21,420 bases of DNA, from positions 1-21,420 of IMG/VR virus record IMGVR_UViG_3300035689_000102. One strand, given 5' to 3'. Below are positions 6,128-15,393 of the stretch, piece after piece. Made by a program: the position numbers and the translations under genes. Under the pieces are notes generated by a model. It made no database searches, was not told the origin of the DNA, and saw only the letters and a program-made list of their open reading frames with translations. Position 1 is the first letter of the stretch; the number at the start of each line of letters is the position of its first letter. Source of the stretch: a virus.

Positions 6128-6131
6128 TTGT

Positions 6132-6212
6132 ACAGGGGTAGTGGCCGGGCCCGCTCCGCCTCAGGATCAATTGAAGTATCGATCTTCAGGCCGCCGGAAC
6201 CACTACTCCTGT
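6132..6212 (+). other. GC-rich folded element, long imperfect hairpin
   Basis: An 81-nt stretch of about 60% GC in an otherwise AT-rich genome. Bases 6132-6144 pair with 6200-6212 over 13 bp, with a single G-U. After a two-base AA bulge the stem continues with CCGG (6145-6148) against CCGG (6194-6197). Inside, GCC at 6158-6160 can pair with GGC at 6189-6191, and TGAAG (6172-6176) pairs with CTTCA (6184-6188) around a 7-nt loop. It lies between the methyltransferase stop and the resolvase start and has no T-tract, so it is not a standard terminator. It could be a structured RNA, an RNA-processing site or a small palindromic mobile element. Confidence 0.7.
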
Positions 6213-6230
6213 TAAGTTTCTAAATACTAT

Positions 6231-6797
6231 ATGATGACAATATATGCGGGAATAGATTATAGTTTAACTTCACCAAGCATCTGCATTTATAATACAGACA
6301 ATGGTGAGTTTGCATTTAAAAACTGTATGGTTTATTTTTTAACAGATGTAAAGAAATTAAACACAGTGTTTTTGGGAAATGTTCGTGGTGAGTCTTTTGA
6401 GGATTATAATAACCAATGTCAGAGATACGACACAATATCGGAATGGGCAATTCAATACCTAATAGGTTGCAAGATGGTTGGCATAGAAGACTACGCTTAC
6501 GCGGCCAAGGGAAGAGTGTTTCACATAGCGGAAAACACTGGCATCTTAAAATACAAACTATTTCAGCAGATGATACCAGTGGAGACAATACCACCAACAG
6601 TGGTGAAAAAGAATGCAACTGGCAAAGGGAACGCGGACAAAGAATTGATGTACAATGCTTTTGTCTCAGAAACTGGCGTGATGCTGAAAAATATTATTAC
6701 CCCCAATAAAAAAGATGTCGGAAACCCCGTTTCCGACATCGTAGACTCTTATTACATCTGTAAGAGTCTTTGGCAGAGTATTTCTGCCAAAGAATAA
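6231..6797 (+). CDS. RuvC-like Holliday junction resolvase/endonuclease
   Basis: Predicted RNase H-fold nuclease that cuts branched DNA during recombination-dependent replication or before packaging, the job of gp49 in T4 although of a different fold. The 188 residues start with a beta-strand carrying Asp9 (YAGIDYSLTSPSI), then Glu86 in VGIEDYAY, a Lys-rich segment VKKNATGKGNADK, and C-terminal acidic residues Asp169 and Asp172 in SDIVDSYY. These fit the four-acidic-residue RuvC pattern. The start is ATGATG at 6231; I see no Shine-Dalgarno in front of it, only the hairpin element and a TCTAAATA sequence (6219-6226). Assignment is by motif pattern, good but not proven. Confidence 0.8.
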   Translation: MMTIYAGIDYSLTSPSICIYNTDNGEFAFKNCMVYFLTDVKKLNTVFLGNVRGESFEDYNNQCQRYDTISEWAIQYLIGCKMVGIEDYAYAAKGRVFHIAENTGILKYKLFQQMIPVETIPPTVVKKNATGKGNADKELMYNAFVSETGVMLKNIITPNKKDVGNPVSDIVDSYYICKSLWQSISAKE

Positions 6798-6826
6798 TAG
6801 GTTTATTTTTTCAAATCTGCATAAAG

Positions 6827-6834
6827 TATAAATA
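6827..6834 (+). promoter_or_regulatory. Late-type promoter box TATAAATA for the 16S-tail RNA
   Basis: An exact match to the T4 late promoter octamer. By T4 geometry transcription would start near base 6840. No start codon follows at the 18-20 base spacing seen for other such boxes in this window, so it appears to drive a non-coding RNA. Confidence 0.65.
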
Positions 6835-6839
6835 CTCTA

Positions 6840-7055
6840 TCAGTTGAAGTGGGGATACCTTATCAACACCTCTCATATTGGGATTATCCCAGAGTGTAAT
6901 GGCTGGATCACCTCCTTGTAATAGGGGTCCCTTTGAAGAGTTTACACAGTGAGAGTGCTTCGGTAAAACCATATTAATCCTTTTTCGCACTAAACTTTAA
7001 CTGCTATCCTAGCCCGAGGAGCAAACAACACACTTAAGGTGTGTTGTTTGTTTGT
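6840..7055 (+). ncRNA. Phage RNA carrying the 3' tail of 16S rRNA (anti-Shine-Dalgarno mimic)
   Basis: A gene-free stretch bounded by a TATAAATA box and a 12-bp terminator hairpin. Bases 6901-6917, GGCTGGATCACCTCCTT, are identical to the 3' end of 16S rRNA of many bacteria, covering the end of helix 45, the GAUCACCUCC tail bound by the GTPase Era, and the CCUCC anti-Shine-Dalgarno. Upstream are possible hairpins GTTGA/TCAAC (6843-6847/6863-6867) and TGGGA/TCCCA (6879-6883/6887-6891), the latter where helix 45 would stand. Downstream, AGTGC (6954-6958) can pair with GCACT (6987-6991). No rRNA similarity is seen outside the 17 nt. It might act as a decoy for mRNAs, for Era or for other 16S-tail-binding factors. 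The match is seen directly; the existence of the transcript and its function are inferred. Confidence 0.75.
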
Positions 7056-7061
7056 TCTTTT
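7022..7061 (+). terminator. Strong hairpin terminator, probably bidirectional
   Basis: A perfect 12-bp stem (7022-7033 with 7039-7050) and a 5-nt loop, followed on the plus strand by a T-rich tail (7051-7061). It would end the 16S-tail RNA. The minus-strand lipoprotein stop codon lies in its loop, so it may also stop converging minus-strand transcripts, although the T tract on that side is poor. Confidence 0.8.
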
Positions 7062-7318
7062 GGTTCGTCTTTTTCTAAACCATCATCGCAGAGAATTGGT
7101 TTACGAATGAATTCTCTATATGCCCAGAATAAAGATATTACCAACACAGGAGCATACCAGAAAACCCAACTATATGATTGTTGTGCAACTCCTGGCTCAT
7201 TTATTCTATCTTTCATGCCAAGAATTATTGGATTGTCTTTTGTGGTGTCTGGTACAATTGTTGGAGTTGTATCACACGCCGCAAGAAGTAGTGACAATAC
7301 TGGAAGAATAAATTTCAT
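7034..7318 (-). CDS. Small lipoprotein with a second membrane segment
   Basis: 94 residues. The N-terminus is a lipoprotein signal: hydrophobic LPVLSLLLAAC with the lipobox Cys at residue 15, so the mature protein would be lipidated on that Cys. A second hydrophobic stretch (about 49-66, with WVFWYAPVLVISLFWAY) is followed by an acidic hydrophilic tail. SD AAGGA sits 8 bases before the ATG. It is 9 bases downstream of the membrane-protein gene and probably cotranscribed from its late-type promoter. The pairing of membrane protein and lipoprotein recalls holin/spanin lysis modules, but an outer-membrane spanin would not normally carry a second transmembrane helix, so the role is open. Confidence 0.75.
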   Translation of the reverse strand: MKFILPVLSLLLAACDTTPTIVPDTTKDNPIILGMKDRINEPGVAQQSYSWVFWYAPVLVISLFWAYREFIRKPILCDDGLEKDEPKEQTNNTP

Positions 7319-7327
7319 TTGTTGTCC

Positions 7328-7765
7328 TTATGATTTATTAGAACCGGCAGCAGAACCAAAATAGAAACCAACTATGCTGAGAAGAATTTGTCTATTCTCA
7401 GATGTATAGAGGAATCCATTTATTTGAACGAAGAACTTTCTGGTGGTTTCAGGAATTAAACCAAAGAATCCTTCTGGGTTCTTTGCATCAACTTCTACAA
7501 AGGTTGGAAGTCCAAAGAACGGTAAGATAAATGGTGCAGCAAGAGTTGCAAATAGAACTGTTAGAACTATGAATTGTCTGACTCCCCTACCAACATCAAG
7601 TGGTACTCTTTTTGCAGCCTTATCTTGGTTTTCGGTTGTTTGTTTGTTTGTTTCCATTGCCATTTGGAACATTTCTTTTTGATCTTGGGCTCTTTGCGCC
7701 CAATAACGAAATAGAAATCCGGTGATTCCACCGCCGAGCATGGAAATCAATTCTGTTGGAATCAT
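7328..7765 (-). CDS. Phage membrane protein, possibly holin-like
   Basis: 145 residues with three hydrophobic segments: about 4-20, 64-85 (FIVLTVLFATLAAPFILPFF) and 127-140. A hydrophilic, Gln/Lys-rich stretch lies between the first two. A very strong SD (GGAGGT) and a CATAAATA late-type box 20 bases before the ATG indicate strong late expression. Neighbours are a lipoprotein downstream and a ligase-fold-like protein upstream. Size and topology are compatible with a holin, but no diagnostic motif supports that and no endolysin is directly adjacent. Confidence 0.7.
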   Translation of the reverse strand: MIPTELISMLGGGITGFLFRYWAQRAQDQKEMFQMAMETNKQTTENQDKAAKRVPLDVGRGVRQFIVLTVLFATLAAPFILPFFGLPTFVEVDAKNPEGFFGLIPETTRKFFVQINGFLYTSENRQILLSIVGFYFGSAAGSNKS

Positions 7766-11405: not shown

Positions 11406-12023
11406 TTAACCTTTTCTCTGTGATGCAAGTTGAACTTCTATTGCGTTTCTGGCATACAACATACTTTCTTTTACTACCGAGGTATCTACCATATCAAACT
11501 TAGTAGAGTTGCACCATTGATTTAGTAAGAAACCAGTAATTTGATTCCTTATTCTTATTGGCAATACGCAAAATCCCTCAACATTATTATCTTCAAAAAA
11601 TTGTTTAAAGAAAGAATGTTGCAAATCATGCATTGATATTATTTTTGGTTCGTCTTCAACCACAGAATTTAGTAGAGGGACAAACATGGAGCAAAGCAAT
11701 CCTTTAATTCTTCCAGCGTCGGCTGACATGCCACGAGATAGAGATTCGTGTGTGAGAGTGAACTTTCGCATTGACACCCCATCCATGAAGTATTCTCCAT
11801 TATGAAATTGTATGATCTGTGATCTTGCAGCATCTGTCTTGACTCGTAGTTCCGTTAGAGTTTCATGAATTTCACCATGAACTTCAATATATTTTTTATC
11901 TTCATCGTTTTTTCTCTTTGGGACTAATTTGATGGTGGTTAATATTACACCAACCACCCCCGCCGTAATTAGACTTGCTGTTTCAAACCACTCAATGAGT
12001 AAATCACTTTTGTTTGATGCCAT
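11406..12023 (-). CDS. Membrane-anchored GAF-like domain protein
   Basis: 205 residues. One transmembrane helix near the N-terminus (about 12-33) is followed by a soluble domain with TELRVKTDAARSQIIQFHNGEYFMDGVSMRKFTLTHES and then VEGFCVLPIRIRNQITGFLLNQWC. This alternation resembles a GAF/PAS-type sensor fold I have seen in other large phages. No kinase or output domain is attached. SD AGGAG lies in the end of the upstream gene, which this gene overlaps by 20 bases. It may sense a small molecule at the host inner membrane or act as a scaffold; ligand and purpose are unknown. Confidence 0.7.
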   Translation of the reverse strand: MASNKSDLLIEWFETASLITAGVVGVILTTIKLVPKRKNDEDKKYIEVHGEIHETLTELRVKTDAARSQIIQFHNGEYFMDGVSMRKFTLTHESLSRGMSADAGRIKGLLCSMFVPLLNSVVEDEPKIISMHDLQHSFFKQFFEDNNVEGFCVLPIRIRNQITGFLLNQWCNSTKFDMVDTSVVKESMLYARNAIEVQLASQRKG

Positions 12024-15000
12024 TTTTAACTACTCCTTTTAGAACTTCCTGAATTGGGTCAACCATGCCTGGTGTTTCCTTTACATATTTTTTTCTCAAT
12101 TCATCAGTTCCAATTTCTCCAGCACCATGTTCCTCGTTCATAGATCTATTTTTGCTTTTTGAAAGAACTCTTAGATTAGAATCACCATTATTTCGTGGAT
12201 TTCCATCTTTATGATCTACATCTTTTCCATCACCTTTTTTAACTCTTCCCTTTTTCATCATTTTTCTTCTTGCCAATACTCTTTTAGATCTGTTTTTTCT
12301 TTGTTCTGGTTTGCTGTGGTAGTTGTCATATTCTTTTCTGTAATTTCTAGCCTCATTCACAAAACTTTCAAATGCCTCTGGGGATAACAAACTATTTTCC
12401 CACATTTCATTCAATAAACTTGCTAAATCTGGTTCTAATCCATTTATCATTATTGTTTCCGGTGAAACCAAACCGGAAGTCAGCGCAATATTTAGTCCTT
12501 CTTCGTTATCTTGATTTTCGATCAAGAAATCATTTATGAATCCATAAGAATCTTCATTAATTTCTTGTGGCGTTTCTTCAAATTGTTGAGAATCCATAAC
12601 CGGAATAGAGAAAACTTTTCTACCGTCTATGATAATTTGATTATAGCCTCTAGATGGCCCTTCCATGTAATCTGTAACATCAACTTCATTAGAAACCATT
12701 ATTTGTGGTTCTAATTCTGTGTAAAACATAAGTGCATTGACATCATTTCCAATTTCATCTAAATCATTTTTCATCTGAGAACTCATTGGAACACCGAACA
12801 TAGAATTTTCCATCTGTTCGTGTAGTCTTGGGGTGTAGTCAATGTTAAACAGAGTAGAGAAAGATCTCATCTTTTTCTTCTGTCCCTTTACAGCCCTAGA
12901 TCTTCCTTTAAATGCTCCTCTGATTTTTAGATCTGGGAGAATTTTTCTAATAAGTTGTTCACTGATTACATCAACTTTGACGCCAGTTCCATCTTTATTC
13001 ATTCCCAACAAATGGGTTGCACACGCGGCGTTATTTGCACCAAACTTACCAACACCACTAAATGATTCTAATATCATTGAGGTTTGGAATTCCTCGCTGA
13101 TATCAAAAATTTCTCGGAACATGTTTGCCACATCATCTTTTAACTTATCTTGTTGTTCTACTATTCTCTTATATTTTCTCATCTCTGCTTCGTTAGCACC
13201 TGATGGAAGTTCTCCGTCAGAGATGTAGGACTTGATTTCTCCAACTTCATAAGTCCCGGTTTCGGCAGATTTGGCAAAATTCAATAATGCATCTTTGATT
13301 TTTTTGACTATGCTTTTAACTTTAGGATTCTTAGCGGCAATGTCTCCAGCCATCCTAAGAGCAGACTCCACGGTTGCTGCTGCTTCCCCACCTTCTGCGT
13401 TTAGAATACGAGAAGCACCAACTTTCATGCTTGCACGAATGCATTTCTTGGGATCTATTTTGCTCATGTCACCATTTGCTTTTTTCCATAAATCTCTGGG
13501 GACAAACATTATATCAGTTTTTGGTGTGCTATCTGTTCCACCAGAATCTGTCCATTGTTTTGTTAGTTTTGTTTTTGCTGATCCCATATGGACACCAACC
13601 ATGTCTCCAAATTGTTGTTGTATTTGTTGAACACAACGCATGGCTGATGCTTGGAGAGTTTTACTTCCAGCCAATTTTTCTTTCATTTTCTTTTCTAGGT
13701 TTGGGTCAGTTCCTTTTATACCCAAAACTTGATTGAGAACCACAGGAATTGCTGCTTCTAGATCCAAAGAACTATGATCCCAATCCTCATATTGAGACTT
13801 TGGTGTTGTTCTAGTTTTTCCCTTTGGTGGAACTTTTGGAAGTTCTGGGAGTATTGTTCTTGGATCTTTTTTAGTTACAGTTGGTTTTTTTTCTGCTGCT
13901 TTCTTTGCTTTTTTCTTTGTTTCTTTTGCCTTTTTCTTCTTTGCAGCACCCTTTGGTTTTGCTCTAGAAAACTCAGGGAATAATTTTTTCGAAGAATCTG
14001 TGATTCTGAAATTGGGATCATCAAGATAACGCTTTGCCTTACCCTTATCAAATTCGTCAGGAGAAACTAATACTCTAGATTTACCAATGTCACGCTTCGA
14101 TACGATCTTAATCTTGTTTTTCTTGCCTTCGCGAGCAACTACTACTGCATAAGCACCACCCTTTTTTTCTCTTCTTTCTTCTTGCTTGCGAATTGTATCC
14201 TTCTTTCGTGGATTGCCTGCGGAACGAACCTCAGTTCTTGCACTAGAACGAACTTTCCGTGGAGATGCGACTGCTCTTTTTACTGCTTCTGATATTAGTT
14301 CTTCGCTTATTCTCACTCTTCTTGGCCTTCCTGTTGTTCTTGGTTGCTTATCCAAACCACTAGCAATTTCGGCTCGTTTGGCACTTAGCAGACGCCTAGA
14401 GAAGTTAGTCTTTACCTGAAAACGAACATTTGCTATTCTTGCTTTTCTTGCTAACGGATGTTCGCCGCGCATAGATGATGTTTTCTTTGCTCTATGTAAT
14501 TTGTTTGCTAGAGTTGTTTTTCTTTGTTTTATTACAGATTGAACAATTTGTGCTTCATTCAACATATTTGCAAAGTCACTTATCTTATCCATTGAAAATT
14601 GTTCTGTTAACTTTTTCTTTCTTGCTGCTGCTCTTTCTCTGGCTTTTTTGTTTCTCTCCAATCTTCGTGCTTCTTCAGCAGCAGGGACAACACTAGTAAA
14701 TTGTCTACGAATCATCGATGCATATTGTTTTTGTTTACCAGATGCAAGAATAGATTCTGGCATAAATGCGTGTGCTAAATCATCTTTTCCCGCTAATATT
14801 GCTTTTCTGAGTCTACCAGCCTTTGCGTGTTCAACTGGAATTCTACCACCGACTACCAATTTGGATAATTCTTCCAAAGGTAAATCTTCTTCACTTCTCT
14901 TCGCTGCAAGTGGATGAAAATCAACTTTAACTCTATGCACTGTTTTTTGATCAGAACCAAGCATACCACCATGTGTCTTCATGTGCTTTTCAATTGCTGC

Positions 15001-15393
15001 TCTAAGAGATTTCTCTCCTTGCATTTGATCTGGTCCTAATCCAACTGTGATATGCTTATGCCCACCCCTTTCTATGAGGTGAACAATTTGATGCATTGGA
15101 CTAATTGAAGATTTTTGCGGGACGGTTCCAAAACTCAGTCTAGATGCACCCATACCTTTTTTGATATGTGCGTGGGAACCCTTTATTATTTGTTCTTTTT
15201 GTCTAAATGATAATGGTGCGTCTGGAGCATTCTCCGAAGCACCAAGACCATGATAAAAATGACTATAACCGGACTTTTCTGCATGAGCAGCAGCAGTCCT
15301 TGCTATTTCTTCGTGTCCTCTGGTATAAGGATTAAAAGCGCCGGTTACTAAAAATGCCGAACCTGTTTGTTTTGCTTCAGTTAATATATCCAT
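12004..15393 (-). CDS. Giant multidomain protein: nucleotidyltransferase, nuclease-like and HNH domains
   Basis: 1129 residues. Residues 10-240 are a HIGH-superfamily nucleotidyltransferase (GAFNPYTRGH at 18-27, LSFRQKEQII at 61-70), the NadM/cytidylyltransferase-like domain common in T4-like phages. Residues 240-540 are highly basic and low-complexity, with a Lys/Ala run at 480-505. Residues 545-700 recall a PD-(D/E)XK-like domain of phage proteins: KTDIMF (Asp627), then ASMKVGASR (Lys657) and an EGGEA segment. The C-terminus, about 1027-1085, is an HNH nuclease (KDVDHKDGNPRNN, then NLRVLSKSKNRS). The start lies within TATAAATG and has only a weak GGGA upstream. It could be a packaged or pre-processed protein; I see no frameshift. 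Confidence 0.75.
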   Translation of the reverse strand: MDILTEAKQTGSAFLVTGAFNPYTRGHEEIARTAAAHAEKSGYSHFYHGLGASENAPDAPLSFRQKEQIIKGSHAHIKKGMGASRLSFGTVPQKSSISPMHQIVHLIERGGHKHITVGLGPDQMQGEKSLRAAIEKHMKTHGGMLGSDQKTVHRVKVDFHPLAAKRSEEDLPLEELSKLVVGGRIPVEHAKAGRLRKAILAGKDDLAHAFMPESILASGKQKQYASMIRRQFTSVVPAAEEARRLERNKKARERAAARKKKLTEQFSMDKISDFANMLNEAQIVQSVIKQRKTTLANKLHRAKKTSSMRGEHPLARKARIANVRFQVKTNFSRRLLSAKRAEIASGLDKQPRTTGRPRRVRISEELISEAVKRAVASPRKVRSSARTEVRSAGNPRKKDTIRKQEERREKKGGAYAVVVAREGKKNKIKIVSKRDIGKSRVLVSPDEFDKGKAKRYLDDPNFRITDSSKKLFPEFSRAKPKGAAKKKKAKETKKKAKKAAEKKPTVTKKDPRTILPELPKVPPKGKTRTTPKSQYEDWDHSSLDLEAAIPVVLNQVLGIKGTDPNLEKKMKEKLAGSKTLQASAMRCVQQIQQQFGDMVGVHMGSAKTKLTKQWTDSGGTDSTPKTDIMFVPRDLWKKANGDMSKIDPKKCIRASMKVGASRILNAEGGEAAATVESALRMAGDIAAKNPKVKSIVKKIKDALLNFAKSAETGTYEVGEIKSYISDGELPSGANEAEMRKYKRIVEQQDKLKDDVANMFREIFDISEEFQTSMILESFSGVGKFGANNAACATHLLGMNKDGTGVKVDVISEQLIRKILPDLKIRGAFKGRSRAVKGQKKKMRSFSTLFNIDYTPRLHEQMENSMFGVPMSSQMKNDLDEIGNDVNALMFYTELEPQIMVSNEVDVTDYMEGPSRGYNQIIIDGRKVFSIPVMDSQQFEETPQEINEDSYGFINDFLIENQDNEEGLNIALTSGLVSPETIMINGLEPDLASLLNEMWENSLLSPEAFESFVNEARNYRKEYDNYHSKPEQRKNRSKRVLARRKMMKKGRVKKGDGKDVDHKDGNPRNNGDSNLRVLSKSKNRSMNEEHGAGEIGTDELRKKYVKETPGMVDPIQEVLKGVVKNGIKQK

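Follow-up and report, generated by a model that had tools for sequence, protein, structure and literature searches.

We found that the stretch of DNA analysed here (the window, an IMG/VR record taken whole, 21,420 bases) appears to contain a non-coding RNA gene, transcribed late and specific to one clade of T4-like, probably aquatic phages. The proposed gene is ~214 nt long (6840..7053, + strand), and the element is found in 26 further viral contigs; it has no Rfam match. At 6901..6917 (+) it carries GGCTGGATCACCTCCTT, which is identical to the 16S rRNA 3' tail and includes the anti-Shine-Dalgarno (anti-SD) sequence. The pattern of conservation suggests that a functional likeness to 16S rRNA is somewhat more likely than coincidence. 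We tentatively propose that the RNA may mimic the 16S tail late in infection, as an SD/anti-SD decoy for a translation or ribosome-assembly factor; this is quite possible, but we do not hold it with confidence.

The layout of the element resembles that of a T4-type late transcription unit. A T4-type late promoter box, TATAAATA, is located at 6827..6834 (+) and was kept in 12 of 12 distinct sequences, whereas the bases flanking it were variable; its activity is predicted. In T4, roughly one helical turn separates the late box from the start, and the first base of the box is at -13 (PMC2988020). If the box here occupies -13 to -6, the RNA is predicted to start at 6840. Both the spacing of the box and the presence of the late sigma factor gp55 in this phage group agree with such a unit; gp55 was found in a 75-kb relative of the element-bearing clade, G001/L005 (phrog_234, E 1e-56). 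Elsewhere in the window, TATAAATA occurs twice, each time immediately 5' of a ribosome-binding site and an ATG. Exact TATAAATA was not clearly enriched over the reversed control in these contigs, and thus our argument for the promoter is one of position and conservation. At the 3' end of the element there is an intrinsic terminator (7019..7053, +), which consists of a hairpin of 16 pairs and, on the + side only, a U-rich tract after it. Its stem was kept in all relatives, with one two-sided change, and the orientation of the U-tract in the relatives was judged from the alignment by inspection. An earlier sequence-only reading of the window had placed a late-type promoter 5' and a terminator 3' of the 17-mer, and both were borne out. 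Comparison across the 12 distinct sequences supports a non-coding RNA gene that has a late promoter and a terminator of its own, with transcription predicted, and we consider it very probable that the element is a phage RNA gene.

The element lies directly 3' of a RuvC-like resolvase gene (6231..6797, +; Pfam PF02075 and phrog_159), and its core is not densely structured. Both observations would fit a conserved DNA element or a 3' UTR of the RuvC transcript, with no separate RNA. This is very unlikely, because the promoter box is conserved and its flanks are not, because a terminal helix and the terminator delimit a discrete unit, and because there are relatives whose RuvC genes are found without the element.

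A small, convergent lipoprotein-like gene (7034..7318, -) has a lipobox-like start, MKFILPVLSLLLAAC, and its stop codon falls within the terminator of the element. Family profile searches with its product gave no match; the product is possibly an o-spanin. A strong minus-strand terminator-like hairpin is present within the 3' part of RuvC (6714-6740, -). Leftward late transcription may therefore cross the RNA gene, end at this hairpin and yield an antisense transcript.

Profile searches assigned several genes of the window to a DnaB-like helicase, ThyX, a class II-type ribonucleotide reductase, a C5 methylase and RuvC. The window also encodes a 1129-aa protein (12004-15393, -) whose N-terminus is cytidyltransferase-like and whose C-terminal part is HNH-like, an unusual fusion. 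G001/L005 shares the element and, besides gp55, encodes a gp43-type polymerase, UvsX, a UvsW-type helicase, a clamp loader, gp46/gp47-type nuclease subunits and a T4-type major head protein. The nearest relatives of its polymerase are those of cyanophages (~50% identity), and the nearest relatives of its gp55 are from Prochlorococcus phages and Methylophilales phages. From this gene set and these nearest relatives, we take the carriers of the element to be T4-like phages, seen in metagenomes only. They are probably of marine or freshwater origin.

The exact 17-mer occurs in 32 viral contigs, 23 of which have common surroundings of ~220 bases and 9 of which are unrelated. Scans that made no use of the 17-mer, which relied on outside motifs, RuvC or the neighbouring gene, recovered the same contigs and three others (L065, L070 and L072). 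In these three, the first 15 nt, GGCTGGATCACCTCC, were kept, and only the final TT was altered, to CG. The family thus comprises the window and 26 other viral contigs, with 12 distinct sequences, and GGCTGGATCACCTCC is invariant in 12 of 12. It is also the longest invariant run of the alignment, and this run coincides exactly with the 15-nt stretch of 16S tail. Next in length is AATAGGGGTCC (6920-6930), which could pair with the 16S-tail block, followed by a run of 9 nt; in all, roughly half of the alignment columns do not vary. No member lacking the 15-mer was found in the scans by RuvC, other motifs or the neighbour gene. As several of these scans were independent of the 17-mer, the conservation of the 15-mer is not an artefact of how members were found. 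The earlier reading had suggested a search for the 17-mer in related phages and had named its loss amid conserved surroundings as grounds for rejection. We observed the opposite: the 15-mer is kept and the surroundings vary. The 17-nt match itself needs trimming, as 6901-6915 is invariant and the last two bases are not.

The covariance model found one copy per contig and found it in this clade only, with no convincing match beyond it. Looser scans by the hairpin and the 3' block gave no distant members, and a search of the GTDB genome collection by hairpin pattern did not find the element. Contigs with RuvC at 52-58% identity had no element, nor did contigs with the 145-aa neighbour at 74-79% identity. 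Among cultured phages, a search by sequence gave only one short chance match. The Rfam search of the window had no match, and a relaxed threshold around the element gave no OLE match. A tRNA or tmRNA identity was ruled out, because model searches had no match and the element has no tRNA-like or tmRNA features.

Within the window, a scan confirmed that 6901-6917 (+) is identical to the 16S tail, and this was the sole match at <=3 mismatches (expectation in shuffled sequence, 0.01). The chance of 2.5 per million given earlier holds for the window alone, but it ignored the search space of 2.9 million viral contigs. In that collection, the 17-mer also turns up in 9 contigs unrelated to the element: mostly it lies within protein genes, where it specifies GGDPA, and only one of the 9 (L029) resembles a genuine 16S end. 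Thus, the case rests on conservation and not on rarity. The element is not a 16S fragment or a contaminant: 26 other contigs conserve it along with its own flanking sequence. Assembly contamination, the other ground for rejection named earlier, did not occur, as the element is present in many independent assemblies.

The 16S match is longer than plain SD pairing would require. Element and 16S rRNA 3' end have in common GGCUGGAUCACCUCC(UU), including GAUCACCUCC. According to literature cited in PMC10582724, GAUCACCUCC is recognised by Era. The match takes in this whole recognition sequence and reaches five bases further 5' (GGCUG), and it is this 5' extension that exceeds the requirement of SD pairing. 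In contrast to the 16S end, the copy in the element is internal and lacks helix 45, and inspection by eye showed no similarity to 16S rRNA beyond the tail.

The sequence-only reading had reported no ORF at this site. Literally this is incorrect, since a 53-codon ORF (6811..6972, -) spans it; its substitution pattern, however, is not that of a protein gene. The ORF encodes MVLPKH...GPLLQGGDPA.TLW.NP.MRGVDKV..., with the 17-mer providing the codons for QGGDPA. A small minus-strand protein at first seemed likely to us, since the frame is open in every relative and an SD-like leader, AAAAAGGATTA.TATG, stands in front of it. Residue likeness also exceeded that of column-shuffled alignments (2/1000). 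We compared 38 codons in eight distinct sequences and used RuvC of the same contigs as the control. Differences at codon positions 1/2/3 numbered 145/202/184 for the ORF and 463/211/1518 for RuvC, so that third-position changes are not in excess. The ratio of synonymous to non-synonymous codon differences was 53:307, compared with 1220:555 for RuvC, and synonymous sites within the conserved blocks were nearly unvarying. These counts indicate that the constraint is on nucleotides and not on a protein. In addition, a peptide search found no relative outside the clade, and the window copy has a frame-disrupting deletion near its end. We therefore dropped the minus-strand protein, which we now regard as highly improbable.

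The predicted RNA begins with a terminal helix, P1, formed by CAGTTGAAGT (6841..6850, +) and ACTTTAACTG (6994..7003, +), the first arm of which starts at the predicted transcription start. The 5' arm of P1 is nearly constant, and the 3' arm is strongly divergent between relatives, mostly still pairing. Own arms paired better than arms swapped between relatives (0.1-1.7% of permutations did as well, depending on the set), and in a hand-spliced alignment of five, three pairs were altered on both sides. P1 is weak in L002 and L065. In the consensus fold a second helix, P2, pairs CTCTCA (6870..6875, +) with TGAGAG (6950..6955, +); one of its pairs is U-A/U-G and the others are invariant. The 16S-tail block is predicted to take part in an SD/anti-SD-like hairpin (6905..6930, +), in which GGATC-A-CCT pairs with AGG-GGTCC around the loop CCTTGTAAT. 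Alone, this hairpin has a local fold of -7.1 kcal/mol, and it is also part of the consensus fold. In full-length folds, its pair probability was 0.14-0.91 in most members and ~0 in L065. The alignment is neutral on the hairpin, because its stem is invariant and no covariation is possible. Covariation of flanking stems had been suggested as a check: P1 has compensatory changes, and the anti-SD hairpin stem never varies. Across the full alignment, RNAalifold reported a single two-sided change.

The fold of the whole element (z -2.7) owes its stability to the terminator. When the terminator was removed, the mean z of seven distinct RNAs was -0.08 versus shuffles. We therefore ruled out a densely structured RNA. 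As far as these data show, the element would be a sequence-motif RNA with a terminal helix and no compact ribozyme-like fold.

Could the identity to 16S rRNA be coincidental? The element could be a genuine phage RNA in which the conserved block is required for folding or for a different partner. The same collection has the 17-mer by chance in ~8 unrelated phage contexts, which counts against mimicry. In addition, neither arm of the hairpin varies, so pairing alone could account for the constraint, and further blocks are invariant as well. However, the 16S match is the single most conserved block in the 12 distinct sequences, and a chance match would have had to land precisely there; the 15-mer is also present in the three contigs that were recovered with motifs other than the 17-mer, and only ~3 of ~215 positions of a 17-nt segment hold a 15-nt invariant run. 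We consider coincidence rather unlikely.

Another possibility is that the RNA is an ordinary antisense regulator, in which CACCUCC pairs with phage or host SD sites and blocks translation. Anti-SD seeds are an established device of sRNAs: the alpha-r14 sRNAs silence mRNAs via anti-SD loops with CCUCCUCCC (PMC10746234). The element resembles the alpha-r14 / NfeR1 ('cuckoo') sRNAs in its small size, its conserved anti-SD motif and its terminator. Those sRNAs have three hairpins with CCUCCUCCC in the loops and are encoded on alphaproteobacterial chromosomes, whereas the element has one CACCUCC copy, partly paired, and extended 16S identity 5' of the motif; the three-hairpin layout that defines them is absent. 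In favour of such regulation, a late gene next to the element (7328-7765, -) has a strong SD, GGAGGTACAGTATG, and distant relatives have extended SDs, GGAGGTGATCC, before GTG starts; in L253, L256 and L259 this extended SD precedes a nucleotidyltransferase-like gene. However, CCUCC would suffice for such a regulator, yet 15 nt including GGCUG are invariant, and the predicted folds occlude the seed at least in part. A 10-nt extended complementary site is absent elsewhere in the 75-kb relative, and no extended antisense target was found in the window or in that relative except the element itself. Simple antisense regulation is, in our judgement, unlikely.

We observed two other RNA candidates. 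L254 (G015) and L257 (G016) contain an intergenic hairpin of 88 nt, which is closed by a long stem and has a T7 tail. In this hairpin GATCACCTCC is paired with an SD-like AGG (z -5.25), and the two copies are identical over ~76 nt, whereas the flanking genes differ at ~1 base in 10. It is possibly an independent anti-SD-bearing RNA of related phages. The second candidate is a GC-rich hairpin of 83 nt in the window (6131-6213, +), between the stop of the C5 DNA methylase and RuvC. Its fold z is -4.2, four pairs show two-sided changes in four relatives, and an Rfam search gave no match. It is present in clade members that have the methylase and missing from four whose sequence at this place is different. 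This hairpin seems to be a better-structured RNA candidate than the element, and one that travels with the methylase.

Relatives with the same gene order suggest how the element came to be where it is. In six contigs (L179, L182, L185, L198, L233 and L247), drawn from phages with the 145-aa neighbour at 74-79% identity, the order is the 145-aa gene, the small lipoprotein-like gene and convergent RuvC. The small lipoprotein-like gene directly abuts RuvC in these contigs and the RNA element is absent. Thus, the element appears to be a clade-specific cassette of ~230 bp, which would have been acquired by one clade or lost from its relatives.

The closest precedent for mimicry is OLE RNA, in which an SD/anti-SD mimic in P6 binds ribosomal protein bS21 (PMC12054373). 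Both are non-coding RNAs in which the 16S anti-SD is copied internally and can, in the element by prediction, pair with an SD-like sequence of the same RNA. OLE RNA, however, is ~600 nt, highly structured and found in Bacillota, with a match of 6 nt (CCUCCU), whereas the element is ~214 nt, phage-borne and weakly structured overall, with a match of 15-17 nt and no Rfam match. The element is not an OLE RNA and has no model match. The claim that no phage system of this kind had been described needs qualification: OLE RNA (PMC12054373) and alpha-r14 (PMC10746234) are precedents, but neither is from a phage, and neither is described there with 15-17 nt of the 16S tail. No phage RNA built on the 16S tail was found in the open-access literature searched. 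The related marine T4-like phages Melnitz and Mosig carry a two-piece tmRNA with a glutamine riboswitch (PMC9004378), and thus translation-related RNA genes have a precedent in this group. The sequence of that tmRNA is unrelated to the element.

Based on these results, we propose a model for the RNA. The first part of the model is that the RNA may display the 16S 3' tail, either unpaired or, as an SD/anti-SD mimic, base-paired with the AGGGGUCC of the same RNA. On the 30S subunit, the 16S 3' tail is the normal site of bS21, bS1, IF3 and the assembly GTPase Era, and the 16S 3' end is also the KsgA site. The second part is that the displayed tail would capture one of the normal tail binders (bS21, bS1, IF3 or Era), in a working mode similar to that of the OLE RNA mimic. 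The protein partner is a guess; no bS21 gene was found in the 18 contigs that were searched. The final part is that capture of the factor would alter the choice of late messages that are translated, or would slow host ribosome maturation.

If the likeness to 16S rRNA is functional, this would be the first phage RNA known to us that is built around the mRNA-docking tail of the ribosome, and it would give a phage a way to act on host translation by RNA alone, without a protein. Even if the likeness is coincidental, the element would represent a non-coding RNA family of T4-like phages that is absent from the libraries searched.
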